From the NCBI GenBank assembly GCA_902798965.1, contig CADBYS010000024.1, positions 1-51,626 of the forward strand: a stretch of DNA of 51,626 nt, read 5' to 3'. The notes beneath the pieces were generated by a model. That model was given only the letters and a program-made list of their open reading frames with translations. It was not told the origin of the DNA and ran no database searches. Of this stretch, positions 5,700-49,111 are shown in pieces; positions within the stretch are counted from its first letter, which is position 1, and each line of letters begins with the position of its first letter. Made by a program: the position numbers and the translations under genes. This DNA is from an uncultured Bacteroidales bacterium. Lineage in GTDB: Bacteria; Bacteroidota; Bacteroidia; Bacteroidales; Paludibacteraceae.

Positions 5700-7715
5700 T
5701 CACGCGCGATCAATAATACGCGTGTACAGGCGGAAGAGCAGGGGAGGAACAGTGAGAGCCATCAGCAGCACGACTGACATACCGAGCAGCGTGATGACGC
5801 CCAGCGAATGCATGGCGGGATGAACGGCAAAAGCCAAGATGCCGATGCCGATAAGCATGATAAGTGCCGACAGAAGGATAGATTGCCGGTATTGAGGTAG
5901 GATAGGTCTGCCTGTGCGATGTTCGTACAGCAGGCCTTCCACTATAAAGATGGTATAGTCATCGCCCTGCCCGAAGATGAATGTGGCAAGGATGATATTT
6001 ACTATATTGAACTGCAGCCCGAACAGTTGCATGAGCGCCAAGATCCACACCCAACTCAGCGCCATGGGTACGAACGCGATAAGTGCGAGCCAAAGGTTGC
6101 GGAAACTCAGCCACAGGAACACGAACACGATCACACTGCAGCACAAGCCTATATAGTCGAAGTCGTCGCTCAGGCGCTTGGTCAGATCGGAGAGGTTGAC
6201 CGGCTCAACGGGTTGCCACGAACGGAGCAGCTCGTAGAACGGCTCGAACGCCTCCGGCTTGAATCCCGCGGCTTGTGCCTGCTCGCGGATGGAGAGGATG
6301 AGCTCGTTGGCATCGTGCGACTGCCAATAGTCAGTCCAACGCCCGGGATCACCCCGCTTGGCATCCAGCGCAGCCATATCGGCACGCTGCTCGGGGGTCA
6401 TGTAATTAATAGTCGAAAGTCGAAAGTCAAATGATTGACTATTTGACGATTGACGATTGACGATCAGGTAGATGCCAAAGATAACGGTTATGACGACTAC
6501 TCCCCATTGGATATACTTGTAATCCTTGATGCGGAACTTCTCGTTCCGTATTTTTATTTCTCTTATCGGTGTGGGCTCCGCCGACATCAGGTGCGGCATA
6601 ATAAAGATGCAGAACAGTATAGTGCCCACGAGCATCGCTGCGGCAAAGATGCCGAGGTGTCGCATGGCGGTTGCCTGCAGGGGGATGAGCGCGAGGAACG
6701 CTCCGACGGTTGTTATGTTGCCAGTCACGAGCGGCGAGAGTACCTCGTCGAGCGTCTGTCGTACGCTGCTTGTGTAGCGCTGATGCACTAACAAGTGTAG
6801 GGGATAATTGACCGCTATGCCGATGAGCACGCTGCCTATACCCAGCACCACGGCGCTGACAGCAGGGGTGACAATTCGTAGCACAGCCATCGCCGTGAGC
6901 CATCCGAAACTGACTGCCAGCAGAATAAGCCACAGATCTCTGCGGCGCGGAAAAGCGTACGCCAACAAGGCAGTAATCAACACAAGCGAAAGGGCGATAC
7001 AGAGCAGCGTGTCGGTCTTGATCCTCCGGGCATTGCCTACACTAATCACGGGCGCTCCGACCCAGCGAATAAGGTGCTGCGGCATTGCGGCAGTTACTTC
7101 GGATGCGATATGCTCGAGCGAATCTATGAGCGCCGCGTTGCGTTTGGACTCCGTTCCGCCATAGGGAGAGGGCAGAAATCCGTATGCCCGCGAAGCTGAT
7201 TGCCGACTGCTGAAAGCTGACAACTCGATTAGTCCCAAGGGGTCAGCCTGGATGGCGGGAGCAAGCATCGAGCCGCCCGGAGTAGCGAGGATACGCTTGT
7301 CGCGCTCGAGTGCCCGGCGGATGGCTTGCGGCGTGAAGAGCGAATCGAAACGGGCATAGGTACTGTCGGCAATCAGATAAGGCAGTTGGCCATAGAGCTG
7401 CTGCAACTGTTCGGAGGGATCGGTGGACAGCGTGTAGCCGCAGTCAGCCAAGCGACTCTCCATCTCATACAAGGCTTCGTCAGCCTGCTCGCCATCGATG
7501 ATGAGTACCAGTTGCGAGACAGTCTGCTGCGCCTGGTAGTTGCGAAACGCCTCGCGCTCCTCGGGCGTAGCCGGCAGAAAATCCATGATGTCCTCGTTGT
7601 AGCGCAGCGTGGCTGCCAACACCGCCAACACCACACATACACCAGCCACCATCGCCCAAAGCGTTCGGCGTCGGGTGGTGAGCAGGTCGTATATCAGGAG
7701 CAGGCGTTGTTTCAT
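5700..7715 (-). CDS. MMPL/RND-family exporter of the aryl-polyene cluster
   Basis: 671 residues. Two tandem halves, each with one membrane helix, a large periplasmic loop and a bundle of helices (first bundle ~237-375, second ~545-665), as in MMPL lipid exporters. Aryl-polyene and flexirubin clusters regularly carry such a gene, thought to move the pigment lipid towards the outer membrane. At about 415-433, just before the conserved I-N-Y-M-T-P-E-Q, the protein contains a stretch encoded by a 7-base-period array (Q-S-S-N-S-Q-S-F-D-F-R-L-S-T). Last gene of the minus-strand run; start lies 2 bases after the ligase stop. Somewhat short for the family; the first loop is compact. Confidence 0.85.
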   Translation of the reverse strand: MKQRLLLIYDLLTTRRRTLWAMVAGVCVVLAVLAATLRYNEDIMDFLPATPEEREAFRNYQAQQTVSQLVLIIDGEQADEALYEMESRLADCGYTLSTDPSEQLQQLYGQLPYLIADSTYARFDSLFTPQAIRRALERDKRILATPGGSMLAPAIQADPLGLIELSAFSSRQSASRAYGFLPSPYGGTESKRNAALIDSLEHIASEVTAAMPQHLIRWVGAPVISVGNARRIKTDTLLCIALSLVLITALLAYAFPRRRDLWLILLAVSFGWLTAMAVLRIVTPAVSAVVLGIGSVLIGIAVNYPLHLLVHQRYTSSVRQTLDEVLSPLVTGNITTVGAFLALIPLQATAMRHLGIFAAAMLVGTILFCIFIMPHLMSAEPTPIREIKIRNEKFRIKDYKYIQWGVVVITVIFGIYLIVNRQSSNSQSFDFRLSTINYMTPEQRADMAALDAKRGDPGRWTDYWQSHDANELILSIREQAQAAGFKPEAFEPFYELLRSWQPVEPVNLSDLTKRLSDDFDYIGLCCSVIVFVFLWLSFRNLWLALIAFVPMALSWVWILALMQLFGLQFNIVNIILATFIFGQGDDYTIFIVEGLLYEHRTGRPILPQYRQSILLSALIMLIGIGILAFAVHPAMHSLGVITLLGMSVVLLMALTVPPLLFRLYTRIIDRA
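6411..6465 (-). repeat. In-frame heptad array inside the MMPL gene
   Basis: Words TCGAAAG, TCGAAAG, then GATTGAC, ATTTGACGATTGACGATTGACG with a 7-base period. Read on the minus strand it is open and encodes part of the second periplasmic loop. Confidence 0.85.
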
Positions 7716-7717
7716 GC

Positions 7718-13698: not shown

Positions 13699-15471
13699 TT
13701 AGTTGTTTGCTTTGTAAATGGTGGCACGTGCTATGTTTTGCGTGCAGTCACCTATATTGCCGAGCACATTATCCCATGCTTCTACCTGTTCGTCGAACTC
13801 AAGCACCAGTGCGCTGCGTATCATGCCCAGGCTCATCTGCGAACGTATATCCGCCATGGCGCATGTCAGGGATTGTTTGCCTTGCGAGTAGGTAGCATTA
13901 TAGCCATGGTTAGCCGTCAGGATGGCAATGGTTGAGGCGACGGTGTTGTGGGTGGATTGCATGAACGGGGTAGGCTTGAGCTGCTGCTCGTTGCGGGCTA
14001 ACATATCTTGCAAGAACTGCATCGACTGCGCCATACATCCCCATTGCGTAGCGCAGACGATAGCCTCGGGCGTAACGCCGCTCTCTGCTATCGCTCGACG
14101 TGCAGCAGCCACGATGCGGCGTGTCTGGGGTGTCATGCGTCGTGCCTCGGCAGGGGAAACGAATCCGTTTACCATCTCGTCATTTACCATTTGGACATTT
14201 ATTTGTTCATTGGGTAATTGAATCATGGTCGCTTCGCTCAGCTCGATTCCCTTGGCACTGATGATGAGCGAGGACTCGTTGCCGCCAAAGCCGAAGGCAT
14301 TGCACAGCACATGGCTGAGTGGGCGGTGCCCGGTGTGAATGACGGGCTGGATGAGTCCTTCGGCTGTATGTGACCAATTGAGGTTGGCGGGGATGAAGCC
14401 GTGCTGGATAGCCAGCGCGCAGATGACGGCTTCTATACCTCCGCTGGCAGAGGTAGTATGACCGGTGAAGGCTTTCGTGCTGCTTACGGCAGGCATCTTG
14501 TCGCCGAAGACGCGTCGGAGTGCGGCCGATTCGCTCAGGTCGTTGTTGGGCGTGGCAGTGCCGTGGGCATTGACGTAGTCGATGTCTGCGGGTTGTAAGC
14601 CCGCCATGTTCAGCGCCTTGCTCATTGCCAGGTATGCACCTTCGCCGTTGTCGGATGATGCTGTCTGGTGGTAGGCATCGCAGGTGTTGGCATAGCCGCC
14701 GATATATCCCAAGATTGTTGCTCCGCGAGCTATGGCATCCTCTTCGTTCTCCAGTAGCAGGTAGCCGGCTCCTTCGCCGAGGTTCAGACCGTTGCGCGTG
14801 GCGTCGAACGGACGACAAGGCTCGTGGTCGAGGATCATCAGGGTGTTGAAGCCGTTGAGATGGAATAGGCTCAGGCTCTCCGCGCCTCCTACCAATGTGG
14901 CTTTCGTTTGCCCCGTGCGCAGCAGGTTTGCGCCCAGCATGATGGCATTGAGTGCCGATGAGCAGGCTGTGGAGGGAGTGGCGATTAAGGTGAAAGGTGA
15001 AAGGTGAAAGGTGAAAGCGAGGTGTCGGGCAATGGCGTTGGTTGATTCGCCTGCCTCATGCAGAGGGATACACTCTGTGGCTTTGCCCTCGTGGTAGTCT
15101 TGCCAATGTTGTTCGGTTAGATCCATGCCACCGACCGTAGTGCCGCTGATGAAGGCGATAGAGTCGAAAGTCGAAGGTCGAAAGTCGAAAGCGGAGGAAG
15201 GGCTACCGAATGCTTGTTGCAGGGCTTCGCGGGCAGCGATGATACCCAGCAGCGAGGTACGCGGCATAGGCTCATCGGCCGGTATGCCTGCCAGTTGCTT
15301 GAGCTGAGCATCGCTGAGCGGCACTTCGCCCACCGGCAACTCGGTGTGTCGGCTGCCAAGAATATGCATCGTGCCGATGCCCGAACGTTCGTCGAGCAAC
15401 GATTGCAGTGTTTCGGCGCAATTCATGCCGATGGCACTGACCACTCCTATGCCTGTGATGGCTATGCGCAT
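13699..15471 (-). CDS. Beta-ketoacyl-ACP synthase fused to a chain-length-factor-like domain
   Basis: 590 residues. Residues 1-~412 are a complete ketosynthase with Cys170 in TPSTACSSA, His303 in NAHGTATPNND, Lys333 and His338 in K-A-F-T-G-H-T. Residues ~438-590 match the small ketosynthase-like N-terminal family (S-P-A-E-A-R-R-M-T, C-A-T-Q-W-G-C-M, P-F-M-Q-S-T-H-N-T-V-A-S), which in related clusters is a separate gene. The linker ~417-436 is encoded by a 7-base-period array. Two further arrays lie inside the ketosynthase: one at ~93-104 and one at ~153-163, right before the active-site cysteine. The two units probably form the elongating KS:CLF pair. Starts directly after the ACP stop codon. 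Confidence 0.87.
   Translation of the reverse strand: MRIAITGIGVVSAIGMNCAETLQSLLDERSGIGTMHILGSRHTELPVGEVPLSDAQLKQLAGIPADEPMPRTSLLGIIAAREALQQAFGSPSSAFDFRPSTFDSIAFISGTTVGGMDLTEQHWQDYHEGKATECIPLHEAGESTNAIARHLAFTFHLSPFTLIATPSTACSSALNAIMLGANLLRTGQTKATLVGGAESLSLFHLNGFNTLMILDHEPCRPFDATRNGLNLGEGAGYLLLENEEDAIARGATILGYIGGYANTCDAYHQTASSDNGEGAYLAMSKALNMAGLQPADIDYVNAHGTATPNNDLSESAALRRVFGDKMPAVSSTKAFTGHTTSASGGIEAVICALAIQHGFIPANLNWSHTAEGLIQPVIHTGHRPLSHVLCNAFGFGGNESSLIISAKGIELSEATMIQLPNEQINVQMVNDEMVNGFVSPAEARRMTPQTRRIVAAARRAIAESGVTPEAIVCATQWGCMAQSMQFLQDMLARNEQQLKPTPFMQSTHNTVASTIAILTANHGYNATYSQGKQSLTCAMADIRSQMSLGMIRSALVLEFDEQVEAWDNVLGNIGDCTQNIARATIYKANN
14166..14216 (-). repeat. Heptad array forming the KS-CLF linker
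   Basis: Degenerate 7-base words on the plus strand (TTTACCA, TCTCGTC, ATTTACC, ATTTGGAC, ATTTATTTGTTCATT). The same word style fills the intergenic space at 25650-25730. Here it is translated without a stop and joins two normally separate proteins. Confidence 0.75.
14984..15017 (-). repeat. In-frame heptad array next to the KS active site
   Basis: Near-perfect repeats of AGGTGAA (minus strand TTCACCT) four to five times. Encodes F-T-F-H-L-S-P-F-T-L, ending seven residues before the catalytic Cys170. The same word fills intergenic gaps at 16265-16302 and 18882-18955. Confidence 0.9.
15161..15190 (-). repeat. In-frame heptad array in the ketosynthase N-terminal part
   Basis: Four TCGAAAG/TCGAAGG words with a period of 7. 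On the coding strand this gives A-F-D-F-R-P-S-T-F-D-S, similar to the insert in the MMPL gene. Confidence 0.88.
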
Positions 15472-15729
15472 TTACTTTGTGCGGTTGGCTTGAATATATT
15501 CTGCCATGGTGCGAACGGAGGCAAAGATGGCTTTGCCCTGCTTGGGGTCTGCCAGCTTGATTCCGTACTCACGATCCATGAGCATGATCAGTTCCAATGC
15601 GTCAATCGAATCCAGACCTAAACCCTCGCCAAACAGAGGGGCATCGGTGTTGATATCTTCCGGAGTCATGTCTTCGAAGTTCAGTGCCTCGATAATTTGT
15701 TGTTTGAGTTGTTCTATCAGTTGTTCCAT
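15472..15729 (-). CDS. Acyl carrier protein
   Basis: 85 residues from the ATG at 15729. The phosphopantetheine serine lies in G-L-G-L-D-S-I-D-A-L-E, with the typical acidic four-helix pattern. It overlaps the end of the upstream ketosynthase-like gene by 13 bases and ends where the KS-CLF fusion begins, so it is probably the carrier for the elongating polyene chain. The other ACP of the cluster is at 18618-18860. Confidence 0.93.
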   Translation of the reverse strand: MEQLIEQLKQQIIEALNFEDMTPEDINTDAPLFGEGLGLDSIDALELIMLMDREYGIKLADPKQGKAIFASVRTMAEYIQANRTK

Positions 15730-16277
15730 ATGATTTGTGATTTTGCGTAAAATGTATTTGCTTCGCTGCATTCGCACCAGCCGGTCAGCAGTCGTGTATC
15801 CGGTTGCATAGCGCGTATCTCGGCTTGCACGATCTTTGTCAACTCTGTAGGCGAATTAAGGATGTAGAATGCCGTTTGCCCTTGTATGTGATGGCGGATG
15901 GCTATCTCTCCGGTTACAATGTTCGGCAGCGTATAAACGAACAATGCCGGGCTGGGGTAGTAGTTGCCTTCGGAAATGCTGCGCAAATAATCCTTGTCGT
16001 TCTTGATGCTTGCGCTGCGGTTAGCCAGGATCACGGCATCTATTGATCTGTGATGTGTGATGTGTGATGTCTGATCTGTGGATTCTCCCAAAATCAGTTC
16101 CGCAGCCATGAAGCCCAGACGGCTGAGCGTGTCCATCTTGTAGAACTTCGGATAGTCGCCCACGTAGCGTCGGTAAAGCTCCACGAGCATCTTTTCGCCC
16201 GTAGCCTCTACTGCTATCGCCTTGCCGTCCAACATAACCGACGCAGCCGTAATCTCTATTTCGTGTTCACTTTTCAC
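15717..16277 (-). CDS. Truncated ketosynthase-like (thiolase-fold) protein
   Basis: 186 residues. The order of motifs (M-D-T-L-S-R-L-G-F-M-A-A-E, D-A-V-I-L-A-N-R-S-A-S, then Y-P-S-P-A-L-F-V-Y-T-L-P-N-I-V-T-G-E-I-A) is that of a ketosynthase N-terminal half, but no active-site cysteine follows. Small proteins like this occur in flexirubin-type clusters and may be structural partners. The only reachable start is GTG at 16277, inside a 7-base array, or an internal ATG at codon 15. Residues ~66-78 (T-D-Q-T-S-H-I-T-H-H-R-S-I) come from another in-frame array. Confidence 0.7.
   Translation of the reverse strand: MKSEHEIEITAASVMLDGKAIAVEATGEKMLVELYRRYVGDYPKFYKMDTLSRLGFMAAELILGESTDQTSHITHHRSIDAVILANRSASIKNDKDYLRSISEGNYYPSPALFVYTLPNIVTGEIAIRHHIQGQTAFYILNSPTELTKIVQAEIRAMQPDTRLLTGWCECSEANTFYAKSQIIWNN
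16044..16082 (-). repeat. In-frame heptad array in the KS-like gene
   Basis: Words TGTGATG repeated with a 7-base period, flanked by CTGATCTGTG at both ends. Encodes a polar H/T/S-rich loop between two conserved blocks. Confidence 0.85.
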
Positions 16278-16302
16278 TTTTCACCTTTCACCTTTCACTT
16301 TC
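16265..16302 (-). repeat. Heptad array at a gene junction (TTTCACC/TTTCACT)
   Basis: Five words with a 7-base period. On the minus strand it encodes the last residues and the TGA stop (16281-16283) of the upstream ketosynthase and the GTG start (16275-16277) of the downstream gene. Confidence 0.92.
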
Positions 16303-17342
16303 CATCTTACCGCGGCATTCACTCCCCCGAATCCCGAAAGCATCTTTATCAGTCGTCTTTCGCTTTCGCCGCTTTCGACTTTCGACTTTTGAGACACCCC
16401 ACTGTGCAGGCTTGTGGGGACCCCGTGACTTTCGACTATCTTCAAGCAAAGGATGGTCTCGAGCACTCCGGCAGCGCCCATGGTGTGTCCGAAGTGCGGC
16501 TTGAGCGCCGATATGGGTACGTCTTGCAGTCCAGCCCGATGGATAGCCATCTGCTCCATGTCGTCGTTATAGAGCGTACCTGTGCCATGCACGCCGATGA
16601 GTGTTATATCGCTCGGCTGCAATCCTTCCGTCACATCTGTCAGGCAGCGGAATGCACCTTCGCCTGTTCGGCTGGGGGCGGAGAGGTGGTTGGCATCGTT
16701 GTGTATGCTGCCTGCCTCCAATACCCATGTCATCTGATCGCTGCCTGCTGATGGCTGATAACTTAGTACCATACAAGCGGCTGCCTCGCCCAGGTTCAAT
16801 CCTTGCCGGTCGGGGCTGAACGGCTTGCACGGTTCGGGCGACAAGGCCTTGAATGACTGAAAACCGCTGACGATGAATCGTGTCTGCAGGTCACAACCGA
16901 TGATGATAGCATGCTTGTACAGGTCAGCATCCAGCAGACGCATGGCGGTGATTTGCGCACAAACGCCTGAGGTGCAGGCATTGCTGACCACTACCGGCGA
17001 ATTGGGATTGCCGAAGTGCTTAGCAATTTGCTGCGCGGGGGTAAGCAAATCGAGGTCATCGCCTTTCGTGGTGCTCAGAATGAATACCGTATCTTTTTGG
17101 CTGCTTAGGTCTGCGAGCTGACTGCCGAGTGCATCTTCCACGCAGCGGATACATAGCGGCACAAACTGCTCGGGCTTTTCGAACAGCGAGGCACAGAACG
17201 GCTCGACATCCGCAAAGCGGTTGCTGTGCATCTTCAGTCCCGTTCGGCCGGCACGCACGGCTTCGTAGTTGGCCTGCGAACCCTGACCTAAGGGCGAAAT
17301 GATACTATGTCCGATACAATAAACCATTTGCAGTTTACTCAT
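16281..17342 (-). CDS. Beta-ketoacyl-ACP synthase
   Basis: 353 residues from the ATG at 17342, which overlaps the dehydratase stop by 8 bases; an earlier in-frame start at 17408 would lie deep inside that gene. The triad is Cys123 (S-N-A-C-T-S-G), His252 (G-V-H-G-T-G-T) and His286 (K-P-H-F-G-H-T). It is shorter than FabF and has a compact N-terminus, like the small ketosynthases of flexirubin-type clusters. Residues ~303-330 include V-S-Q-K-S-K-V-E-S-G, encoded by a 7-base array, and the last six residues plus the stop are also array-derived. Confidence 0.87.
   Translation of the reverse strand: MSKLQMVYCIGHSIISPLGQGSQANYEAVRAGRTGLKMHSNRFADVEPFCASLFEKPEQFVPLCIRCVEDALGSQLADLSSQKDTVFILSTTKGDDLDLLTPAQQIAKHFGNPNSPVVVSNACTSGVCAQITAMRLLDADLYKHAIIIGCDLQTRFIVSGFQSFKALSPEPCKPFSPDRQGLNLGEAAACMVLSYQPSAGSDQMTWVLEAGSIHNDANHLSAPSRTGEGAFRCLTDVTEGLQPSDITLIGVHGTGTLYNDDMEQMAIHRAGLQDVPISALKPHFGHTMGAAGVLETILCLKIVESHGVPTSLHSGVSQKSKVESGESERRLIKMLSGFGGVNAAVRWKVKGER
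16356..16438 (-). repeat. In-frame heptad arrays in the ketosynthase C-terminal part
   Basis: TTTCGCTTTCGCCGCTTTCG, then TTTCGACTTTTGAG, and a single ACTTTCGACTA after an intervening 36 bases. Translated as part of a loop before the conserved S-G-F-G-G-V-N-A-A. Confidence 0.85.
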
Positions 17343-17724
17343 TTTCAATCGTGGCAATCTTGAGTGTGGTGCTTGCAATCTGTTCATCCTCCACATAGGT
17401 GACCACATCCATCAGGCAGATGTTCAGCACCTCTTGTGCGACCGTAGCCTCCGTACGTAGCGTCTCGCCTATACGTGGCAGCCGCGTTGCTTTCATCTGC
17501 TTCACAGCGCCGATATAACCTATCTTGTTGCCCGCCCGTACGGCGCAGGTCTGTGCAGCGTTTTCCATCAGTCCCGACAATGGCAGTATTCCCTCGCAGA
17601 CCAGCACGCAATCGTCTGTCACAGTGAAGCGGGTACGTGCCGTGGTGGCACTTACCTCGTCTATCGTGTCGATGAATTCGAAGGGTTTACGCTGGGGGAT
17701 ATATTGTTCGATATCGGTTGTCAT
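17335..17724 (-). CDS. Hotdog-fold dehydratase subunit (ApeP/FabZ-like), Glu-bearing
   Basis: 129 residues from the ATG at 17724 (ATGA overlap with the acyltransferase stop). I-P-Q-R-K-P-F-E-F-I-D matches the FabZ start I-P-H-R-x-P-F-L-x-V-D, and L-M-E-N-A-A-Q-T carries the catalytic-helix glutamate and glutamine. The G-H-F-P-G loop histidine is missing (C-E-G-I-L-P-L-S-G). It complements the protein at 12232-12540, which has the histidine but not the glutamate. Confidence 0.8.
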   Translation of the reverse strand: MTTDIEQYIPQRKPFEFIDTIDEVSATTARTRFTVTDDCVLVCEGILPLSGLMENAAQTCAVRAGNKIGYIGAVKQMKATRLPRIGETLRTEATVAQEVLNICLMDVVTYVEDEQIASTTLKIATIENE

Positions 17725-18570: not shown

Positions 18571-18613
18571 CAATTTAACAGCTTAACAGCTTAACAATTT
18601 AACGGTTTAACAT
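18571..18613 (-). repeat. Heptad array TTAACAG/TTTAACA
   Basis: Six words with a 7-base period fill the gap between the ACP and acyltransferase genes; the ACP stop codon lies at its edge. Confidence 0.9.
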
Positions 18614-18617
18614 GTAA

Positions 18618-18860
18618 TCAGCTTAACCGCTTTTCAATGTAATCGTAAAGCTCCGCCAAGGTCTTGACGGTCTTGAGTTCTGCCGGCTGCGGCTTGAAGC
18701 CGAACTCGCGTTCGATCAGCACAACGATATCCACAAAATCCAGCGAGTCAATCTCCAGATCTTGTTTCAGTTGTGCCTGCGGACTAAGCAAACTCTGCTC
18801 AATCTCAAACTCCTCAATGAGGAGCGTGTTCACTTTTTCAATAATCTCTTGTTTAGTCAT
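18618..18860 (-). CDS. Acyl carrier protein
   Basis: 80 residues from the ATG at 18860; an upstream start would add 14 basic residues encoded by the adjacent repeat and is not credible. The phosphopantetheine serine lies in L-E-I-D-S-L-D-F-V-D. It is acidic, with a typical helix pattern. It may carry the aryl starter or the finished chain for the acyltransferase encoded next. Confidence 0.93.
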   Translation of the reverse strand: MTKQEIIEKVNTLLIEEFEIEQSLLSPQAQLKQDLEIDSLDFVDIVVLIEREFGFKPQPAELKTVKTLAELYDYIEKRLS

Positions 18861-18881: not shown

Positions 18882-18955
18882 CTTTAACCTTTCACCTTTC
18901 ACTTTTCACCTTTCACCTTTCACTTTTCACCTTTCACTTTTCACCTTTCACCTTC
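18882..18955 (-). repeat. Heptad array TTTCACC/TTTCACT, about ten words
   Basis: The longest array of this type in the window. It occupies the whole gap between methyltransferase and ACP and supplies the methyltransferase TGA stop at 18948-18950. Confidence 0.95.
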
Positions 18956-20069
18956 CCACTACCAATATCGAGTGCCCTCCGTTGCCTATGCGGTCGTGAA
19001 TAGCCTCGATGCGTAGTTCGGCTTCGGCGATGAGTCGCGTCATGTCGTCGGTGTTGTACATCTTGCTGTTGCCGTTGGCCAGGGCTGTGAAATACAGGCT
19101 GGTCATCGTCAGACTCATGGCAGCGGGCACGTAATCCTGTCTGTCCCACAGCGTTTCCATGATGTAGATACGGCTGTCGGCATCCAACAACGCGGCCGCA
19201 CGTCTGAGGATGGATACGATCTGCTGCTCGCTAAAGCAGTCCAGAAATTGCGACATCCAGATGATATCATAGCGTCGGTCGGTAGGGAAGGGCTTTGCCT
19301 CATCCAGTATGTTCATGCCCACGCCGTGTATGCGCTCTGCGCCGGGGCAGCCGGCTGTGGCTTGCTGCATGAGCGCAATCTGCTGTGGCAGATCGCAGAT
19401 GGTGACTTCTATATCCTCGCTTTTCTCTACGCAACGCATAGCGAACCGACCGGTATTGCCGCCTACATCCAGCACATTTATCTTCCCGGCGCTTTCGACT
19501 TTCGACTTTCGACTTTTGACTATTATCGCCAGCGCCTCGTCGAAGGAGTGGTCGGAGTAGTAGTGATCGAATCCAAACCACGAGCGTTGTACCTGCTCGG
19601 GCAGACTGCTCAAGCCCTCGTAGATTGTTGGCCAGTTGCCGAAATGTTTGAGTCCGGCAGGTTTGCCTTCCTCCAGTGCCTTATCCAGCACGAACCAACC
19701 TTCGTAATTCACATCGTGGTTGAAGTCGATATCGGCACGGATCATCTGATCGCGCAACAGGAACCAACCTGTCTTGGCCAAGGTGTAGCGGTCGGTGTCG
19801 GGATCGATCAGCACGATATGTGTGGTCAATGACGCTTCCATCAGGCACTTCACGGCATAATCGCTCAGCCCCGTGCGCGCCACTATTTCGCTTTGCGTCA
19901 GCCCCTCGCGGTGCTCGCTGAGCATCTCAAGAATGCCGTACTTGATCATCAAGCGGCATACCTGGAAGATCACAGCTCCCCACGAGTACATGTGTGCCAT
20001 CGCTTGTGCCTGCTGTGCACTGAACGGCTCACGACTGAACGTATTTTTTAGATTCTCGAATAACTGCAT
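18948..20069 (-). CDS. SAM-dependent methyltransferase (AcOMT-like)
   Basis: 373 residues. An N-terminal winged-helix dimerisation domain (~1-100: L-T-Q-S-E-I-V-A-R-T-G-L-S-D-Y-A-V) is followed by a Rossmann fold with the SAM motif N-V-L-D-V-G-G-N-T-G-R-F at 198-209. The family methylates small phenolic or polyketide substrates; here the aryl head group of the polyene is the likely target. Immediately before the SAM motif, residues ~184-193 (V-K-S-R-K-S-K-V-E-S) come from a 7-base array at 19491-19522. The stop codon is in another array. Confidence 0.87.
   Translation of the reverse strand: MQLFENLKNTFSREPFSAQQAQAMAHMYSWGAVIFQVCRLMIKYGILEMLSEHREGLTQSEIVARTGLSDYAVKCLMEASLTTHIVLIDPDTDRYTLAKTGWFLLRDQMIRADIDFNHDVNYEGWFVLDKALEEGKPAGLKHFGNWPTIYEGLSSLPEQVQRSWFGFDHYYSDHSFDEALAIIVKSRKSKVESAGKINVLDVGGNTGRFAMRCVEKSEDIEVTICDLPQQIALMQQATAGCPGAERIHGVGMNILDEAKPFPTDRRYDIIWMSQFLDCFSEQQIVSILRRAAALLDADSRIYIMETLWDRQDYVPAAMSLTMTSLYFTALANGNSKMYNTDDMTRLIAEAELRIEAIHDRIGNGGHSILVVGR
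19491..19522 (-). repeat. In-frame heptad array in the methyltransferase
   Basis: Four TTTCGAC/TTTTGAC words. Encodes K-S-K-V-E-S on the minus strand, identical to peptides in the ammonia-lyase and the ketosynthase of the same operon. Confidence 0.92.
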
Positions 20070-20080
20070 TGTACAATGTA

Positions 20081-20139
20081 GCAGCTTAACAATTTAACAC
20101 TTTAACAGTTTAACGGCTTAACGGTTTAACGACTTAACC
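20081..20139 (-). repeat. Heptad array TTTAACN, about eight words
   Basis: Lies between the ketosynthase and the methyltransferase; the ketosynthase stop TAA at 20126-20128 is one of the TTAAC words. Confidence 0.93.
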
Positions 20140-21355
20140 TCTTGAGCACCAGCGCGCTGTTCGTTCCACCGAAACCGAAACTGTTGCTCAGCACGGTGTT
20201 CAGCTCGGTGTGTATAGTCTGCTTGGCCAGGCGTAGTTCCTGAGCACATTCATCCACCTGTTCCAGGTTGATGTTCGGCGCCACGAATCCCTGTTGCATC
20301 ATCAGGATGGAATACACGGCTTCGCTTGCTCCGGCCATCCAGCACTCGTGTCCTGTCATCGACTTTGTGCTGCTTATCCATGCCCGTTTGCCGCCGAACA
20401 GTTGTGTCAGTGCCACTGCTTCCTGTTCGTCGCCTTGCTGCGTGGAGGTAGCGTGGGCGTTGACGTAATCTATCTCATCGGCAGTGATGCCGGCATCCTC
20501 CAGTGCGCGCTGCATGGCAATGAGCGAGCCTTGGCTGCTCGGCTGCGATATGCCTGCGCCGTTACTTGAGAATCCGTAGCCGCAAACCTCTGCCAGGATC
20601 GTTGCTCCGCGAGCCACTGCGTGCTCATAATCCTCGAGCACCAAGGCTGCTGCGCCTCCGCTCGGAACCAGACCGTCTCTATCCTTATCGAACGGTCGGC
20701 TGGCACGCGTGGGGTCGTTCACGCGGTTGGAGAACGTGCCCAAGGCATCGAAGGCTGCCATGGAGTAGGGGTTAACCTCTTGCGCACCGCCTACCAGCAC
20801 CATTTCTTGCAGTCCCTGACGGATGAACATCGCTCCCACACCGATAGAGTGACTCCCGCTCGCGCAGGCTGCACTCACCGAGAAGTTGATGCCGCGCAGG
20901 TGGAAGATTGTTGAGAGGTTCATGTTCACCGTGGAGTTCATCGACTGAAATATCAATCCGCTGCCCAGCAGGGCTGTATCGTGCTTGGCGAGCATCGTCT
21001 CGTGCATCTCGACGGTTGGCTGGGCTGTGCTGTCGTTGCCGAATAGGATGCCCACCTCGTTATCAAGCAGATACTGCTCGTCGATGCCCGCTTGCTCCAA
21101 AGCCTCGCGCGCAGCCATATAGGCGTACATCGCCTCTTGCGACAAACCCGTGCGCAGCCGCCTGTGCAACAGGGCTTTCAGGTCGGGTGTATCTACGATA
21201 CCCGTCAGAGGGCTGCGAAAACCGTACTCGCGCCGCGACTCGTCGATACCTATGCCGCTCTTGCCGGCCATGAGCGACGCACTCACTTCCTTCTGGTCAT
21301 GCCCGATGCACGACCATATACCTATTCCCGTTATTACTACTCGTCTACTTTTCAC
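20126..21355 (-). CDS. Beta-ketoacyl-ACP synthase (FabF-like)
   Basis: 409 residues, full length. Triad Cys164 (S-A-A-C-A-S-G), His301 (N-A-H-A-T-S-T, with A instead of the usual G) and His336 (K-S-M-T-G-H-E). The C-terminus N-S-F-G-F-G-G-T-N is standard. The start has to be GTG at 21353-21355: a stop lies just upstream in frame and no ATG precedes the conserved V-V-I-T-G-I-G. That GTG is part of a repeat word (AGTGAA). Probably the initiating ketosynthase of the polyene pathway; overlaps of function with the other two cannot be resolved by sequence. Confidence 0.9.
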   Translation of the reverse strand: MKSRRVVITGIGIWSCIGHDQKEVSASLMAGKSGIGIDESRREYGFRSPLTGIVDTPDLKALLHRRLRTGLSQEAMYAYMAAREALEQAGIDEQYLLDNEVGILFGNDSTAQPTVEMHETMLAKHDTALLGSGLIFQSMNSTVNMNLSTIFHLRGINFSVSAACASGSHSIGVGAMFIRQGLQEMVLVGGAQEVNPYSMAAFDALGTFSNRVNDPTRASRPFDKDRDGLVPSGGAAALVLEDYEHAVARGATILAEVCGYGFSSNGAGISQPSSQGSLIAMQRALEDAGITADEIDYVNAHATSTQQGDEQEAVALTQLFGGKRAWISSTKSMTGHECWMAGASEAVYSILMMQQGFVAPNINLEQVDECAQELRLAKQTIHTELNTVLSNSFGFGGTNSALVLKRLSR

Positions 21356-21386
21356 TTATGTCTTATGTCTTTTGTCTTTTGTCTTC
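21354..21386 (-). repeat. Heptad array CTTATGT/CTTTTGT
   Basis: Four to five words of period 7 fill the short gap between the ketoreductase and ketosynthase genes. Confidence 0.85.
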
Positions 21387-22111: not shown

Positions 22112-22149
22112 CTAACAATTTAACAGCTTAACAATTTAACAGTTTAACT
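22112..22149 (-). repeat. Heptad array TTTAACA/CTTAACA
   Basis: Five words upstream of the ketoreductase. It is followed at about 22180-22225 by two copies of a CGTGGT-TTTCCCTAA unit, and no gene lies in 22150-22262. Confidence 0.9.
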
Positions 22150-22262: not shown

Positions 22263-23786
22263 TTATACTTTTTTCAAGTACTTTTCTATCTCTGCCAAGT
22301 CCTCGTAGAACGGTGTGTCATCCACGATGGTGGGGGTGAGTCGGCGAATAGCCTCGTACTGCTTGCGCGTGGCTGTAGCCAACCTGTCTTTGATACCCAG
22401 ACAATCCACGGCTTGCGCCATGGCCAGATACAGAATGCTCATCACCTGATAGCAGTTGTCGATCACCTGCGCACACAACTCGGCACTGTTCGTGCCCATG
22501 GATACGATATCCTGATTGTCGTTGTTGTTGGGGATCGAGTGTACGTAATTGGGCATCGCCAGTGTCTGGCACTCGGCTGTTGTACTTGTGGCGGTGAACT
22601 GACATGCCTGTATGCCGTAGTTCAGCCCCAGTGTACCCATGTTCAGAAAGGGTGGGAGTATGCCGTTGATGCGGTCGTGGCACAGGTAGTTCAGTTGCCG
22701 CTCGCTGACCATCGCCAGACGAACCATGGCAATCTTCACCTTGTCTGCTTCCAGCGATATATAGTCGCCGTGGAAGTTGCCGCCATGATATACGTTTTGC
22801 GTCTCAGGGTCAACAATCGGGTTGTCGCTCGCAGCGTTCAACTCCTCCTCTATCACCTTGCGGCTGTAAGCCAGCGTGTCGTCTATTGCCCCGAGGATCT
22901 GCGGTGCGCAGCGCAGCGAATAGTACGCTTGCACCTTGTCCTTGAACACTCCATCGCTTTCGACTTTCGACTTTTGACTTTCGACTGAGTACAGCATATT
23001 CTCGCGTTTGAGCAATCGCTTGCTGTCGCTGCTCATGGCGCGCATGAGTTCGGCAATCCGTATCTGTCCCTCGTGCCTGCGGCTCTCGTTGAGCGGCGCA
23101 GCCATCAGGTCGTCGTAACTGCCGGCGATTTCGTTCATCCATACAGCAGCCAGCGTGGCGTGATGCAGCAGATTCTCGGCATGCAGCTGGTTAACGGCGC
23201 TGATGCCGGTCATCACGCTTGTGCCGTTCGTGCAACTCAGCCCCTCACGGATATGGATGCTCATCGGTTGCAAACCGCACTCATCCATCACCTCGCGCGT
23301 AGCACGCCACGCTCCGTTGTAATGCACTTTTCCTTCGCCTATCAGGCACAGTGCCATGTGTGCCAACTGTACCAGATCGCCGCTGGCACCTACGCTGCCG
23401 TGCTTGGGGATATACGGGTAGATGCCCCGGTTGATGAACTCCGTAAGCAGAGCAACCAACTCAGGATGCACGCCGCTCTTGCCTTGCGCAAACGAACCCA
23501 CACGTGCGAGCATGCTCGCGCGTACAAAAAAATCGCTCAGCGGCTCGCCCATACCTGTGGCGTGCGAGCGAATAATGTTATACTGCAAATCGCGCAAGTG
23601 ATCGTCACTCACGCGCCATTGAGCCATTGGCCCGAAACCTGTATTGATGCCGTAGATAATTTTGTTCGACGCAAAACGCTCCAGAAAATCGTACGACTCT
23701 GCGATACGCCGGAGCGCTGCAGAGTCCCATTCCAGTTGACCTGCGCCGTACAAGATAGAACGTACTGTATCTATGCCTATTTTCAT
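22263..23786 (-). CDS. Aromatic amino-acid ammonia-lyase, tyrosine ammonia-lyase-like
   Basis: 507 residues from the ATG at 23786. The MIO cofactor triad Ala134-Ser135-Gly136 is in G-S-V-G-A-S-G-D-L-V-Q-L, with the catalytic tyrosine in I-Y-G-I-N-T-G-F-G. The substrate-selecting pair is Ser74-His75 (L-Q-Y-N-I-I-R-S-H-A), which at first suggests histidine ammonia-lyase, but the Flavobacterium tyrosine ammonia-lyase, as I recall it, has the same pair and a very similar overall pattern (H-S-I-P-N-N-N-D-N-Q-D-I-V-S-M-G). Lying first in an aryl-polyene operon, it probably makes 4-coumarate from tyrosine. Residues ~269-280 (S-V-E-S-Q-K-S-K-V-E-S-D) are array-derived. Confidence 0.87.
   Translation of the reverse strand: MKIGIDTVRSILYGAGQLEWDSAALRRIAESYDFLERFASNKIIYGINTGFGPMAQWRVSDDHLRDLQYNIIRSHATGMGEPLSDFFVRASMLARVGSFAQGKSGVHPELVALLTEFINRGIYPYIPKHGSVGASGDLVQLAHMALCLIGEGKVHYNGAWRATREVMDECGLQPMSIHIREGLSCTNGTSVMTGISAVNQLHAENLLHHATLAAVWMNEIAGSYDDLMAAPLNESRRHEGQIRIAELMRAMSSDSKRLLKRENMLYSVESQKSKVESDGVFKDKVQAYYSLRCAPQILGAIDDTLAYSRKVIEEELNAASDNPIVDPETQNVYHGGNFHGDYISLEADKVKIAMVRLAMVSERQLNYLCHDRINGILPPFLNMGTLGLNYGIQACQFTATSTTAECQTLAMPNYVHSIPNNNDNQDIVSMGTNSAELCAQVIDNCYQVMSILYLAMAQAVDCLGIKDRLATATRKQYEAIRRLTPTIVDDTPFYEDLAEIEKYLKKV
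22955..22986 (-). repeat. In-frame heptad array in the ammonia-lyase
   Basis: CTTTCGACTTTCGACTTTTG, then ACTTTCGACT: four words, open in the coding frame, adding roughly 10-12 residues to a loop between conserved blocks R-E-N-M-L-Y and F-K-D-K-V-Q. Confidence 0.92.
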
Positions 23787-23850
23787 CTGTATTTGTCTAT
23801 TCCTTTCCTTTAAAATGGATGCATACTGCACTAAGCAGCAAAAAAACGCA

Positions 23851-27070: not shown

Positions 27071-27118
27071 GGCTTTCGACTTTCGACTTTGAGTGAGCGA
27101 AGCGAGCGGTCTTTCGAC
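27071..27118. repeat. Heptad array TTTCGAC with GAGCGAAGCGAGCGGTC element
   Basis: Two TTTCGAC words, then the imperfect palindrome GTGAGCGAAGCGAGC and GGTCTTTCGAC. AGACCGCT at the waaA end and AGCGGTCT here could pair as a weak stem. Confidence 0.8.
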
Positions 27119-30845: not shown

Positions 30846-30854
30846 CATCCATAA

Positions 30855-30907
30855 TAACTTAACAGCTTAACGCTTTAACAATTTAACGGCTTAACAGTTT
30901 AACAACT
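30855..30907 (+). repeat. Heptad array TTTAACA/CTTAACG
   Basis: About seven words fill the whole gap between the protease gene and the DUF1599 gene. Same words and same plus-strand orientation as in the minus-strand pigment cluster. Confidence 0.93.
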
Positions 30908-30908
30908 T

Positions 30909-31448
30909 ATGACGACTTCCGAAGCATACGACAGCGTTTTGGCACAGTGCCGAAACATCTACGTCAAAAAGATGAAAGATTACGGACCCTCGTGGCGCAT
31001 TATGCGTCCGCAGACGGTCAACGACCAGCTCTTCATCAAGGCCAAACGTATTCGCACTCTGGAGATGACAGGTGTGAATCTGGTCGGCGAAGATATAGCC
31101 GGCGAGATGCGGGCGATTGTCAACTATTCTGTTATGGGCATCATCCAACTGCGTCACGGCTTTGCCGACAACGTGGATATGTCGGCTGCTGAGGCTACGG
31201 AGTTGTACGATAAGTATGTAGCGGAAGCTAAAGCGTTAATGCTGCGCAAGAACCATGATTACGGCGAAGCGTGGAGGGATATGTTGCCCTCCTCGCTCGT
31301 CGATATCATCCTAACGAAGATCAATCGGAACAAGCAGATTGCCTCCAACGACAACAAGACCCTCATTTCCGAAGGCGCCGACGGCAACTACTTCGATATG
31401 CTCAACTATGCCGTGTTCTATCTTATTTTGACAAGCGAAAATCAATAA
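30909..31448 (+). CDS. DUF1599 protein
   Basis: 179 residues. Two homologous halves: K-K-M-K-D-Y-G-P-S-W-R-I-M-R at ~20-33 and R-K-N-H-D-Y-G-E-A-W-R-D-M at ~113-125, each followed by a helix with I-x-x-K-x-x-R. This is the DUF1599 (nucleotide-modification-associated) family, common in Bacteroidota next to a DoxX-like gene, as here. Molecular function is unknown. Confidence 0.88.
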   Translation: MTTSEAYDSVLAQCRNIYVKKMKDYGPSWRIMRPQTVNDQLFIKAKRIRTLEMTGVNLVGEDIAGEMRAIVNYSVMGIIQLRHGFADNVDMSAAEATELYDKYVAEAKALMLRKNHDYGEAWRDMLPSSLVDIILTKINRNKQIASNDNKTLISEGADGNYFDMLNYAVFYLILTSENQ

Positions 31449-44223: not shown

Positions 44224-44374
44224 GTATATAGGTAGCATACTCGGTATATAGGTAGCATACTCGGTACGAGTGGAGTATAATAGCAGGTGGGAAACGGAAG
44301 CTTGCTTACAAGTTCCCACCTGCTATTATACTCCAAAGAAGACGTTAGTCTTCGCTACCTAATATACAAAAAAA
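44217..44374. repeat. Nested palindrome, possible MITE-like element
   Basis: Outer arms: TTTTTTTGTATATAGGTAGC from 44217 and, reversed, GCTACCTAATATACAAAAAA from 44354, with one indel. Inside lie two copies of the 20-base unit GGTATATAGGTAGCATACTC (the first partial) and a perfect 22-base hairpin, arms 44272-44293 and 44313-44334 with a 19-base loop. No coding capacity. Confidence 0.8.
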
Positions 44375-44392: not shown

Positions 44393-44396
44393 CGTG

Positions 44397-44470
44397 GGTG
44401 GAATGTGGGGCTCGAACCCACGACACTCGGAACCACAATCCGATGCTCTGCCAACTGAGCTAAGACCACC
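44397..44470 (-). tRNA. tRNA-His (GTG)
   Basis: Read on the minus strand from 44470: extra G at -1 facing C73, D-arm GCTC/GAGC, anticodon stem TCGGA/TCCGA with loop TTGTGGT (anticodon GTG), variable GTGTC, T-arm GTGGG-TTCGAGC-CCCAC. The acceptor is GTGGTCT against ATTCCAC, leaving mismatches at 5:68 (T-T) and 6:67 (C-T). CCA is not fully encoded. It has its own promoter (44535-44565) and terminator. Confidence 0.92.
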
Positions 44471-45313: not shown

Positions 45314-45358
45314 AATCGTCATGTTTTTAGGGATAGGATAATTATCCTATTCACGGTG

Positions 45359-45468: not shown

Positions 45469-45499
45469 TTGCAAATTCGGATAATTTTTCGTATCTTTG
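45469..45499 (+). promoter_or_regulatory. Promoter of the hypB operon
   Basis: TTG at 45469-45471, 20 bases, TATCTTTG at 45492-45499. A transcript would begin near 45506, which makes the ATG at 45509 nearly leaderless and favours the hypB start at 45533. Confidence 0.78.
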
Positions 45500-45532
45500 T
45501 AGGCTTTTATGAAAAACACATACCTGAGAAAC

Positions 45533-46228: not shown

Positions 46229-46257
46229 ATCGTCAATCGTTAAATCGTCAATAGTTT
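46198..46257 (+). repeat. Heptad array AATCGTC/AATCGTA
   Basis: About seven words; supplies the end of HypB and its stop (46226-46228) and runs to 1 base before the next start codon. Confidence 0.9.
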
Positions 46258-46258
46258 T

Positions 46259-49111
46259 ATGCCTAAGATGTCCGACAAGTTCGTTCCCAAGCACAGGGGC
46301 GACAAGAATCCCAATCCGAAACTGCTGAAGTTTGTTCGGCACGTGACCGACCGTCTGCCCGGCAAAGTAAAGATGACCACCGATGCCCCGGAGTATTGGG
46401 GCTTGGCATGTATCTTTGAAGACGAGATGGATGCCGTGACGCGTGAAGCGGCGCTGGATCTGCTGCTCGACATGCTGCCGGGCAACTTCTTTAAGGTACG
46501 CAAGCATCACACCTATGCTCAGCTGCACGAGATGAATGCCAAGAAGCATTACACGCCCGACGACCAATCGCTTGACGACCTTTTGGACAAGTTGGCGTAT
46601 TTCGGCATGCTCGAGTACGATTACGGCGACAAGTATCCCAAAAAGGAGAATGGCGAATGGAAAGATGTGGAACGCTCGCATTTTAAGCGGGAAGAGCGCG
46701 TATATTGGGTTCCGATGTTCGTGCCCGGCAGTGCCGAATATACCAACATGAACACCGAGCTCATGGACAAACATCCCGAACTCGCGATGTTCTTCGAGCG
46801 AATGACGTTCTTGCCGCTGGAGAAAGTGACACCGATGGTGCCCATGGGCGGTTCAGGCATTGGCATGCACGTCATTCCTGTGGAGAAAGCAATCTCGATG
46901 GAGAACCAGTCAATTGACATCGAGCATATCAGTTACTGGCTCAAGAAGTACGAGGGACATATAGGTGTAGGTATCTGTTCGTGCCGCTATGGAAGGAAGA
47001 AACTGGAAGAAGGTTGTGCCGATGACTACCGCGACTGGTGTATCGGTGTAGGCGACATGGCGGATTACTTGCGCGAGACCGGTCGCGGACACGACATCAC
47101 GTACGACGAGGCGATGGCTATCCTCAAGAAAGCCGAAGACCACGGCTTTGTGCATCAGGTTACGAACATCGACGGCGAAGGGAAGATTTTTGCCATCTGC
47201 AACTGCAACGTGAAGATCTGCAACGCACTGCGTACCTCGCAACTGTTCAACACGCCGAACATGAGCCGTAGTGCGTATGTAGCCAAGGTCGATCCTAAGA
47301 ACTGTGTGGCGTGCGGACGATGCGTGGAGTATTGTCCCGCGGGTGCTGTGAAACTGGGTCAGAAACTCTGCACCAAGCACGGACCACAAACCTACCCGAA
47401 ACAGGAACTGCCCGATGCAGCTAAGTGGGGCGAACATAAGTGGAACGAGAACTACCGCGACGACAACCGCATCAACTGTTATCCTACCGGTACTGCTCCG
47501 TGCAAGACTGCTTGTCCCGCGCATATAGCCGTGCAAGGCTACCTCAAGAAAGCCGCCGAAGGCAAGTACACCGAGGCGTTGGAACTCATCAAACGCGAGA
47601 ATCCCTTCCCCGCAGTGTGCGGACGAATATGTAACCGTCGCTGCGAGGACGCGTGCACGCGCGGTACAATAGATAGAGCTGTTGCCATCGATGCGGTAAA
47701 GAAGTTCATTGCCGAGAAAGACCTGCATGCCGATACGCGCTTCATTCCCGAGGTGAACATCTGTTCCAATGTGCAAGAGCGCTGGGAAGAGAAGATAGCC
47801 ATCATCGGCGGTGGTCCTTCAGGACTGAGTTGCGCGTATTACCTGGCTACGATGGGATACAAACCCACAGTATTTGAGAAGAACGAAAAACCGGGCGGTA
47901 TGTTACGTTATGGCATCCCGTCGTACAAACTGGATAAGGCTGTTATCGATGCCGAGATTGATATCATGCGCGAGATTGGCGTGGATATCCGTTGCGGCGT
48001 GGAAGTAGGCAAGGACGTGACGATTGCCGAACTGCGCAAGCAGGGGTACAAAGGCTTCTATGTGGCTATAGGTTGTCAAGGTGGTCGTCTGCCGGGCATC
48101 GAAGGTCAAGATCTTGAAGGCTGCACAACCGCTATAGACTTCCTACATGACGCTAACTGCGGTCAAAAGAAGATTGCAGGCAAAGTAGTTGTAGTAGGCG
48201 GCGGAAACGTGGCGATCGACGCGGCACGTGTGGCTAAACGTAGTGGCGCAAGTGAGGTGACGATGCTCTCGCTGGAGACCGAAGATATCATGCCCGCATC
48301 GCTCGAGGAACGAATGGAAGCTCGCGAGGATGGGGTAGTGATCAACCCGGGTTGGGGACCACTCAAAATCACAAATCACAAATCACAAATCACAAATGTC
48401 GGAAGTATCACGTTCAAGAAATGCCTGTCGGTATTCGACGAACAGCATCGCTTTGCACCGACCTTCGATGAGGCACAAACAATCACTCTCGATGCCGATA
48501 TGGTGATCTTTGCCATTGGTCAGACGGTAGTACTGAAAGACCTGCTCAAGGGCACGAAGGTAGAATTTTTCCGCGGTGTGTATCCCGTCGCAGACAAGCT
48601 GACGCTACAAACAGCCGAACCGGACATCTTTGTAGGTGGTGATGTCTTTACGGGGCCGAAGTTCGCTATAGATGCGATTGCAACGGGTAAAGAGGCTGCC
48701 GAGAGTCTGCATCGCTATGTGCAAGGCGGGCACATGACCATCGGTCGCAACCGCCGCGATTTCATCGAACTCAACAAACAAGATATACAGGTTGAGCAAT
48801 ATGACAACGGCAGTCGTCAAGACCCCGGAGTTGTGCCCACGAAGAGCAAGTTCGACGAATACCATGGCACACTGACCGAAGAGCAAGTCAAGAAAGAGAC
48901 CGCTCGATGCCTGAGTTGCGGTGCGTCGGTGGTGGATGAGAACCGTTGTATAGGTTGCGGTATATGCACCACGAAGTGTGCGTTCGATGCCATCCACCTG
49001 AATCGCGAACACCCCGAAGCCAGCGTGATGCGCACTTCCGAGAACAAGTTCGACGGTATTCTGCCGTACATGCTCAAGAGGGCAGGGAAAATCATCTTCA
49101 ATAAAAAGTAA
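46259..49111 (+). CDS. FeS/FAD oxidoreductase (GltD/NfnB-like) with extra N-terminal domain
   Basis: 950 residues. ~1-340 is an N-terminal region with C-S-C-R-Y-G and I-C-N-C-N-V-K-I-C cysteines and winged-helix-like parts. ~345-365 is a 4Fe-4S motif (C-V-A-C-G-R-C-V-E-Y-C-P). ~410-500 is the GltD-type cysteine domain (C-P-A-H-I, V-C-G-R-I-C-N-R-R-C-E). ~510-860 binds FAD and NAD(P) (G-G-G-P-S-G, V-V-G-G-G-N-V-A). The C-terminus has more cysteine motifs (C-L-S-C-G, C-I-G-C-G-I-C-T-T-K-C). It probably moves electrons between NAD(P)H and ferredoxin. Residues ~703-713 (I-T-N-H-K-S-Q-I-T-N) are array-derived. Ends one base into hypA. Confidence 0.83.
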   Translation: MPKMSDKFVPKHRGDKNPNPKLLKFVRHVTDRLPGKVKMTTDAPEYWGLACIFEDEMDAVTREAALDLLLDMLPGNFFKVRKHHTYAQLHEMNAKKHYTPDDQSLDDLLDKLAYFGMLEYDYGDKYPKKENGEWKDVERSHFKREERVYWVPMFVPGSAEYTNMNTELMDKHPELAMFFERMTFLPLEKVTPMVPMGGSGIGMHVIPVEKAISMENQSIDIEHISYWLKKYEGHIGVGICSCRYGRKKLEEGCADDYRDWCIGVGDMADYLRETGRGHDITYDEAMAILKKAEDHGFVHQVTNIDGEGKIFAICNCNVKICNALRTSQLFNTPNMSRSAYVAKVDPKNCVACGRCVEYCPAGAVKLGQKLCTKHGPQTYPKQELPDAAKWGEHKWNENYRDDNRINCYPTGTAPCKTACPAHIAVQGYLKKAAEGKYTEALELIKRENPFPAVCGRICNRRCEDACTRGTIDRAVAIDAVKKFIAEKDLHADTRFIPEVNICSNVQERWEEKIAIIGGGPSGLSCAYYLATMGYKPTVFEKNEKPGGMLRYGIPSYKLDKAVIDAEIDIMREIGVDIRCGVEVGKDVTIAELRKQGYKGFYVAIGCQGGRLPGIEGQDLEGCTTAIDFLHDANCGQKKIAGKVVVVGGGNVAIDAARVAKRSGASEVTMLSLETEDIMPASLEERMEAREDGVVINPGWGPLKITNHKSQITNVGSITFKKCLSVFDEQHRFAPTFDEAQTITLDADMVIFAIGQTVVLKDLLKGTKVEFFRGVYPVADKLTLQTAEPDIFVGGDVFTGPKFAIDAIATGKEAAESLHRYVQGGHMTIGRNRRDFIELNKQDIQVEQYDNGSRQDPGVVPTKSKFDEYHGTLTEEQVKKETARCLSCGASVVDENRCIGCGICTTKCAFDAIHLNREHPEASVMRTSENKFDGILPYMLKRAGKIIFNKK
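48364..48397 (+). repeat. In-frame heptad array AATCACA in the oxidoreductase
   Basis: Four near-perfect AATCACA words plus a partial one; the same word type fills the gap at 49839-49868. Confidence 0.93.

Follow-up and report, generated by a model that had tools for sequence, protein, structure and literature searches.

REP elements with RAYT transposases are short dispersed palindromic repeats. In-frame fusion of small dispersed repeats has been documented in Rickettsia and in several further bacteria, and the Rickettsia palindromic elements (RPEs) are given, in the part of the source available, as palindromic sequences of 105-146 bp with terminal inverted repeats and a target duplication that is itself marked '?' (PMC2229807). 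Tandem 7-bp units have also been reported: GGGAATC of Xanthomonas and GGGGA(C/T)T of Nostoc are G-rich, form G-quadruplexes as oligonucleotides and, as far as the available sections of the report go, are under-represented in coding regions, with 68% intergenic in Anabaena (PMC4692102). According to the portion available of a third source, TAACTGA repeats of Beggiatoaceae, Cyanobacteria and some Bacteroidetes contain stops in the forward orientation and mostly lie just upstream of start codons in the genome studied, being mainly peripheral when they occur in genes (PMC4679880). The repeat described here, a cassette of about 30 bp, resembles RPEs and protein-coding MITEs in being dispersed and in frame inside conserved protein genes as well as intergenic (PMC2229807), but it consists of tandem heptads, with neither an inverted repeat nor a detected target duplication. 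It shares dispersed tandem 7-bp units and a four-unit preference with the Xanthomonas and Nostoc heptads (PMC4692102), yet is not G-rich, and 30 of 53 arrays from an untargeted search lay wholly in called genes. Like the TAACTGA repeats, which come as sets of 2-6 copies in one genome, it has 7-bp units in short series and a patchy distribution among relatives (PMC4679880). Palindromic repeats occupy the same loops of LepA, RimO and an FeS/FAD oxidoreductase in some relatives, but the cassette is non-palindromic and shows no clear association with Y1_Tnp genes. By behaviour the cassette is nearest to RPE-type elements, and by form to the heptads of Xanthomonas, Nostoc and Beggiatoaceae. Having neither the palindrome and size of an RPE nor the variable copy number and intergenic place of heptad simple sequence repeats (SSRs), it is best described as a variant of the dispersed repeat inside coding sequence. 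Our literature search, with most subscription papers and bioRxiv preprints outside its scope, found no report of heptad cassettes read in frame in Bacteroidales.

The window analysed here is a whole stretch of 51,626 nucleotides, contig 24 of a draft genome (G000; 2.85 Mb, 51 contigs, 90% complete); all genomes compared were drafts, one per species. The best named relatives of its FeS/FAD protein were uncultured Bacteroidales MAGs, several of them labelled Paludibacteraceae and many derived, by their record titles, from samples of the rumen or of other ruminant gut sites. Exact period-7 runs with at least nine matches numbered 19 in the window, against a mean of 0.1 and a maximum of 1 in 10 dinucleotide shuffles, and periods 14 and 21 were enriched as well (9 and 12 versus 0.5 and 0.2). 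The heptad arrays of the original prediction are therefore real, and every site that it listed was recovered except 14166, where we found a weak period-15 repeat (14168..14201, minus strand) in a KS/CLF linker that is hypervariable among orthologues. Several different heptads, not one, make up the window arrays. Those named in the prediction fall mostly within a cluster of ketosynthase (KS), methyltransferase and ammonia-lyase genes (Pfam), which resembles an aryl polyene or flexirubin cluster.

Two strict four-heptad cassettes of 30 bp, both without mismatch, lie on the minus strand: a GAGG form at 22957..22986 in the aromatic amino acid ammonia-lyase gene (22263-23831), encoding VESQKSKVES, and an AGGG form at 19492..19521 in the methyltransferase gene (18948-20069), encoding VKSRKSKVES. 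On the plus strand, a cassette with one substitution (15162..15191) runs antisense to the KS-CLF gene (13699-15471), which there encodes FDFRPSTFD, and a degenerate one with four mismatches (6404..6433; core 6411-6428) runs antisense to the MMPL gene (5700-7715), giving SFDFRLST. Shorter arrays are AAAGTCG with 2.6 units (16372..16389, minus), which encodes KSKVES near the C terminus of the KS gene (16281-17408), and CTTTCGA with 2.6 units between genes (27073..27090, plus). Other heptads form a TTTCACC array of 4.4 units in KS-CLF (14987..15017, minus; FTFHLSPFT), an ATCGTCA array of about 3 units in the MMPL gene (6443..6464, minus), an AAATCAC array of 4.6 units in the FeS/FAD oxidoreductase gene (48366..48397, plus; gene 46259-49111, aa 703-713) and an ACACATC array (16044..16080, minus) in a 186-aa open reading frame (15717-16277), which had been called KS-like and has no Pfam match. 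Less confined to genes are a long AAAGGTG/AAAAGTG array between a 94-aa open reading frame and the 3' end of the methyltransferase gene (18882..18954, minus), an essentially intergenic AAAAGAC/ATAAGAC array (21355..21385, minus) and a further AAAGGTG/AAAAGTG array (16266..16308, minus). The last of these spans the 3' end of the KS gene and runs off it, while the listed in-gene arrays do lie in open frames, as had been stated. The shared peptides were likewise confirmed, with KSKVES at aa 341 of the KS, aa 188 of the methyltransferase and aa 287 of the lyase, three unrelated enzymes, and FDFRxST at aa 429 of the MMPL protein and aa 95 of KS-CLF. We also observed that the KS gene (16266-17408 region) ends inside heptad arrays with a frame of 376 aa, and that its relatives measured 316-359 aa in seven listed cases and 542-564 aa in three; the arrays may thus have altered the KS C terminus.

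We compared eight array sites, six in the window plus one each in LepA and RimO, with their orthologues. All were hypervariable: most relatives were shorter or different, and some carried another heptad or octad at the same site. The peptide was missing in most orthologues at all eight, which supports the proposal that peptides shared by non-homologous genes arose from insertion or expansion of a DNA repeat. No distant genus was seen to carry the same peptides at these positions; within the genus they recurred in the lyase of G007, in KS-CLF of G051 (at 14987) and in LepA of G009. For the lyase (29 rows from 30 loci, 23 of them close), G000 and G007 hold the same cassette type, and the 21 other close rows comprised 15 shorter by 5-6 aa, two shorter by 3 aa and four of equal length or one residue longer, among them G051, which by eye has another heptad; six distant homologues showed gaps of about 20 aa. 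Most methyltransferase orthologues have an 8-aa gap at the cassette site, and heptads were present in three of 18 rows (G000, G001 with four AGACAAA units and G053 with four AGCGGTK units). At KS-CLF 14987, five of 17 rows had heptads, the same one in G051 as in G000 and others in G001, G053 and G015, and 12 had none; at KS-CLF 15162, again over 17 rows, heptads occurred in two (GGAATCA in G053), the octad AAATGGCC in G002, and neither in the other 14 relatives. The MMPL comparison gave heptads in three of 15 rows and a period of 15 in one; many relatives were of similar length and different sequence, the 6404 site varied, and AAATGGT heptads occupied the 6443 place in G001 and G051.

The FeS/FAD loop could be followed most widely: of 99 loci, all but two fragments could be parsed, giving 97 loops, and some genomes may occur in both sets. 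The 21- or 22-aa form accounted for 84 loops and longer forms for 13, and the best period, at a low threshold, was 7 in 12 loops and 14 in six. This one loop hosts AAATCAC (in the window), AAAATTA, GTACAAA, GTTGAAA and GGTGAAA types, and a palindromic repeat in three rows. An AlphaFold model, used for this local feature only because it is otherwise poor (mean pLDDT 41.8), places the array at the turn of a predicted beta-hairpin formed by strands 699-707 and 710-726, where the local pLDDT is about 80. Relative to common orthologue forms, array sites were longer by about 4 to 11 aa with no constant value of 10, a spread which suggests that loops were also trimmed or replaced during or after insertion, such that no single clean event is demonstrable.

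Cassettes were also found in housekeeping proteins, namely LepA, 3-dehydroquinate synthase (AroB) and peptidase T (PepT), each identified through solved homologues. Gaps of 6, 19 and 5 residues, respectively, face the arrays in the best solved homologues of these three, but a clean gap was missing in those of KS-CLF at the 14987 array and of the lyase at the 22957 array, where it amounted to 2 residues. Cassettes also occur in proteins that, by their sequence features, are probably LeuRS, RimO, PrmA and DnaX. LepA had a match in all 61 genus genomes (some to related factors), and 50 rows were aligned, one of them a 40% fragment. A single hairpin was the only indel site in more than three of the 50 rows: 25 were short (YKGY type) and 25 had 5-33 extra residues. 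An identical 30-mer sits at the same base in G000 and G009, though these are apart in the tree and differ in the surrounding sequence; the LepA of G001, a tree neighbour of G000 but available as a fragment only, has the short hairpin, and other species have a different heptad or palindromes there. Parsimony on the tree gave nine presence/absence changes, of which well-supported branches force three. RimO, with 30 rows out of 60 matching genomes, showed heptads in three, octads in two and other sequences of varied length in the rest. Palindromic C-rich/G-rich repeats (CCCTTCC..GGAAGGG type) were observed at heptad loops of FeS/FAD (L036, L068, L069), LepA (L301, L314) and RimO (L404); they translate as SPKGKG, or as LPFREGLG in L404, which was judged from the peptide.

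Across the G000 genome, three CTTTCGA units with at most two mismatches matched 282 places (partly overlapping), compared with one for the reversed control pattern. A more general pattern, ARNNNAA in four units, gave 302 matches versus 172 for its reversed control, and since that control is also high its matches served only as a sequence list. The commonest repeat proved to be a near-fixed 30-bp cassette of four AGTCRAA units plus AG, followed by C and mostly preceded by A or T and then T or G. Cassette statistics refer to 800 kb of G000, about half of it picked for holding the repeat, with approximate gene calls from a simple custom caller. AAAGTCG/AAAAGTC arrays were exactly 30 bp long in 39 of 54 cases in called genes, six of 10 intergenic cases and three of seven at gene edges. 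Runs of one to six AGTCRAA units numbered 23, 13, 4, 46, 1 and 1 in called genes and 14, 7, 3, 14, 2 and 1 elsewhere; the variable copy number of heptad SSRs was thus not seen, multi-unit runs peaking sharply at four. In the untargeted part alone (16, 7, 4, 14, 1 and 1 in genes; 8, 6, 2 and 7 for one to four units outside), the four-unit peak was clear in genes (14 versus 7, 4, 1 and 1) and weak outside (7 versus 6 and 2), with single units equalling four-unit runs in frequency and two-unit runs outside genes nearly doing so (6 versus 7).

The junction was similarly constrained. The base after isolated cassettes was C in 51 of 58 and A in seven (binomial P = 8e-24 against 0.25), whereas C followed 11 of 37 single AGTCRAA units and a fraction of 0.27 of all AAAG occurrences. 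In G045, 12 sites hand-chosen from a match list, leaving out overlapping ones, had C after 10; 11 were isolated four-unit blocks and the twelfth had most of a fifth unit ahead of it, and longer mixed runs also occur in this genome. G007 and G046 hold single cassette copies with the same flanks. An internal variant with TCA in the second unit turns up in 20 of 58 copies in G000 and nine of 11 in G045, at places unrelated to one another. Shared internal G/A variants were rejected as proof of subfamilies because they are roughly independent in G000, the AGGA form (5 versus 1.4) being the exception. Single heptads as an uptake-sequence or Chi-like signal were likewise discarded, six of seven rotations standing at 0.87-1.12 of expectation and AGTCGAA at 1.37. 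Density is uneven along the genome, as illustrated by six AGTC-type arrays within 3.4 kb over three adjoining genes (L024:11149-14561), and in the 3-dehydroquinate synthase gene an AGTC cassette is followed directly by four AGCCRAN heptads (L297:3756-3810).

The repeat has a discrete length, fixed ends and a quantised copy number, its sites are variable and many relatives lack it. We therefore lean, with some reserve, towards regarding the AGTC family as a tiny non-palindromic dispersed repeat of about 30 bp that is copied as one block and tolerated in variable loops. The block would be copied whole within the genus, in G000 to roughly a hundred places, by some machinery. On landing in a gene in the AGTC orientation it would be read through, because its length of 30 bp is divisible by three and this strand has no stop in any frame, adding about 10 residues, and it would persist where a variable loop or linker tolerates the charged peptide. 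The loops themselves may turn over repeatedly across sister species, as suggested by the other heptads (AGACAAA, AGGTGAA, AATGGAA and AATCACA among others), octads and palindromes at the same places.

Local slippage in 7-bp steps at each site, with only three-unit (21 bp) gains surviving in genes such that one unit becomes about four, strikes us as rather unlikely for this family. It would fit the many different heptad sequences across the genus, the enrichment of period 21 and the lengths of other heptads in relatives, where 16 of 25 coding arrays measure 27-37 bp and arrays outside reach 111 bp (overall 21-111 bp), and slippage is discussed as a cause of 7-nt repeats in the part of the literature available (PMC4679880). 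However, outside called genes, too, multi-unit runs most often have four units, the following C belongs to four-unit blocks and not to single units, and one heptad, the AGTC type, makes up 26 of the 53 untargeted G000 arrays though its single units are not clearly enriched. The first of these observations, together with the fixed 30-bp length and its following C, also speaks against the suggestion that frame selection, three units equalling seven codons, sets the copy number. Frame selection may account for the tighter lengths that other heptads show within the coding DNA of relatives, and it is for those heptads above all that slippage is possible.

The distribution of the repeat bears on whether it is instead a selected DNA site, for example for protein binding with four evenly spaced contacts, the peptides being a by-product. 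Among 25 genus genomes, the CTTTCGA triple matched more than 30 times in seven and not once in eight, and it was absent from all 16 genomes examined outside the genus. The strict cassette pattern occurred in three of 295 genomes of the order (G000 with 98, G305 of the same genus with 53 and G345 with 47) and in none from two other genera of the family. In G345, which belongs to another family, 11 of 13 listed places were part of two long tandem runs; one such run of the same heptad (C12:3996-4074) indicates that the unit is not unique to the genus. Relatives have frequent heptads of their own, including AAAATGG in five of 18 arrays of G051, AACTATC in four of 13 of G065 and AACCTGC-type units in G017, counts which are rough because the samples were 40-100 kb; in samples of that size, untargeted arrays numbered none in G054 and one in G002. 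Fixed spacing and the four units would suit a DNA site, and a four-unit preference is reported for Xanthomonas GGGAATC in the available text (PMC4692102). This explanation is nevertheless improbable, given that sequence and presence vary between sister species, eight of the 25 genus genomes going without the triple, and that over half of the untargeted arrays lie wholly inside called genes. Coding DNA makes up 88% of the sample, so that arrays are denser per base between genes, though they are not mainly intergenic in the manner of heptad SSRs. A higher intergenic density would be expected if many in-gene insertions were removed.

Within genes, strand and frame were unevenly used. Of 72 strict matches in G000, 51 fell inside called genes and 21 outside, and those inside comprised 47 sense and 4 antisense copies, the sense copies using all three frames (26, 12 and 9). 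The 30-bp block is frame-neutral and its AGTC strand is free of stops in every frame, while the opposite strand lacks stops throughout only if each of the four units has TCG, every TCA unit stopping one antisense frame; the sense bias is therefore partly trivial. Even the all-TCG form, which carries no stop in any of the six frames, showed 16 sense to 3 antisense copies, so the charged sense peptide seems to be better tolerated than the antisense one. Selection of the peptide KVESRKSKVES itself, as a useful linker or hairpin extension, would also produce such a bias and the preferred frame, but three frames and both strands are used, giving different peptides, almost a third of strict matches are outside called genes and the same enzymes of relatives do without it, all of which leaves this reading very improbable. 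An assembly artefact of metagenome bins is scarcely credible even for draft genomes such as G000 with its 51 contigs, as frames stay open through the in-gene copies of the window, the cassette recurs in several species and the differently named bins L068 and L069 share a nearly identical loop insert.

Returning to the reading of a block copied as a unit, we searched for the machinery that might mobilise it. Beside isolated cassettes, 15 of 58 had a match of at least 3 compared with 12.6 expected, none above shuffled pairs, and hence no target duplication was detected; neither a terminal inverted repeat nor a palindrome was visible in the listed copies and flanks. PF01797 (Y1_Tnp, the RAYT/IS200 type), the one transposase family examined, matched 23 of 61 genomes at E 0.001, with 19 above the cut-off and many of the matches partial. 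Y1_Tnp matches, mostly weak, occurred in five of seven cassette-rich and six of 18 poorer genus genomes (Fisher P = 0.18) and were absent from cassette-rich G001 and G015. With one draft genome per species, neither a mobilising enzyme nor a strain-level empty site was found. A vehicle was also sought. Viral contigs were rejected: the pattern was present in 29, but as runs of 4-11 full units with C after one of 29 and T after 20, several being copies of one region, and the 18 at four units, which is the minimum of the pattern used on these contigs, often ran into a partial unit. Plasmid records gave no megablast match to one 30-mer. It is conceivable, though we hold this more tentatively than block copying as such, that the cassette represents a class of ultra-short mobile DNA, a 30-bp non-palindromic block that dedicated or borrowed machinery would duplicate in full, with a preference for [AT][TG] ahead of it and C behind it, and that repeatedly enters the same loops of essential proteins across the genus, the heptad being replaced between species.

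What is new here is the occurrence of in-frame repeats in uncultured rumen Bacteroidales, dense, far smaller than the usual MITE and of another shape. Dozens of species of the genus offer filled, empty and replaced states of the same loops for comparison, 50 for LepA alone, so that the rate, direction and protein cost of short insertions become measurable. A four-unit preference in the absence of G-runs suggests that the G-quadruplex account from Xanthomonas may not be general, and a peptide that recurs in unrelated enzymes of such genomes is not necessarily a functional motif. Further repeats were observed alongside the heptads. In the window, TTAACAGY-type octad arrays, which contain TAA, lie between genes or at gene ends (18575-18632, 20084-20138, 22113-22148 and 30852-30909), and a perfect 20-bp tandem repeat of 2.2 copies (44224-44266) is located near a tRNA-His gene (44396-44469); at the Rfam gathering score, one tRNA was the sole match in the window. 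Tandem repeats of period 11 (and 22) are common in the genus, for example at L235:15454-15546, L211:322-421 and L212:8481-8523.
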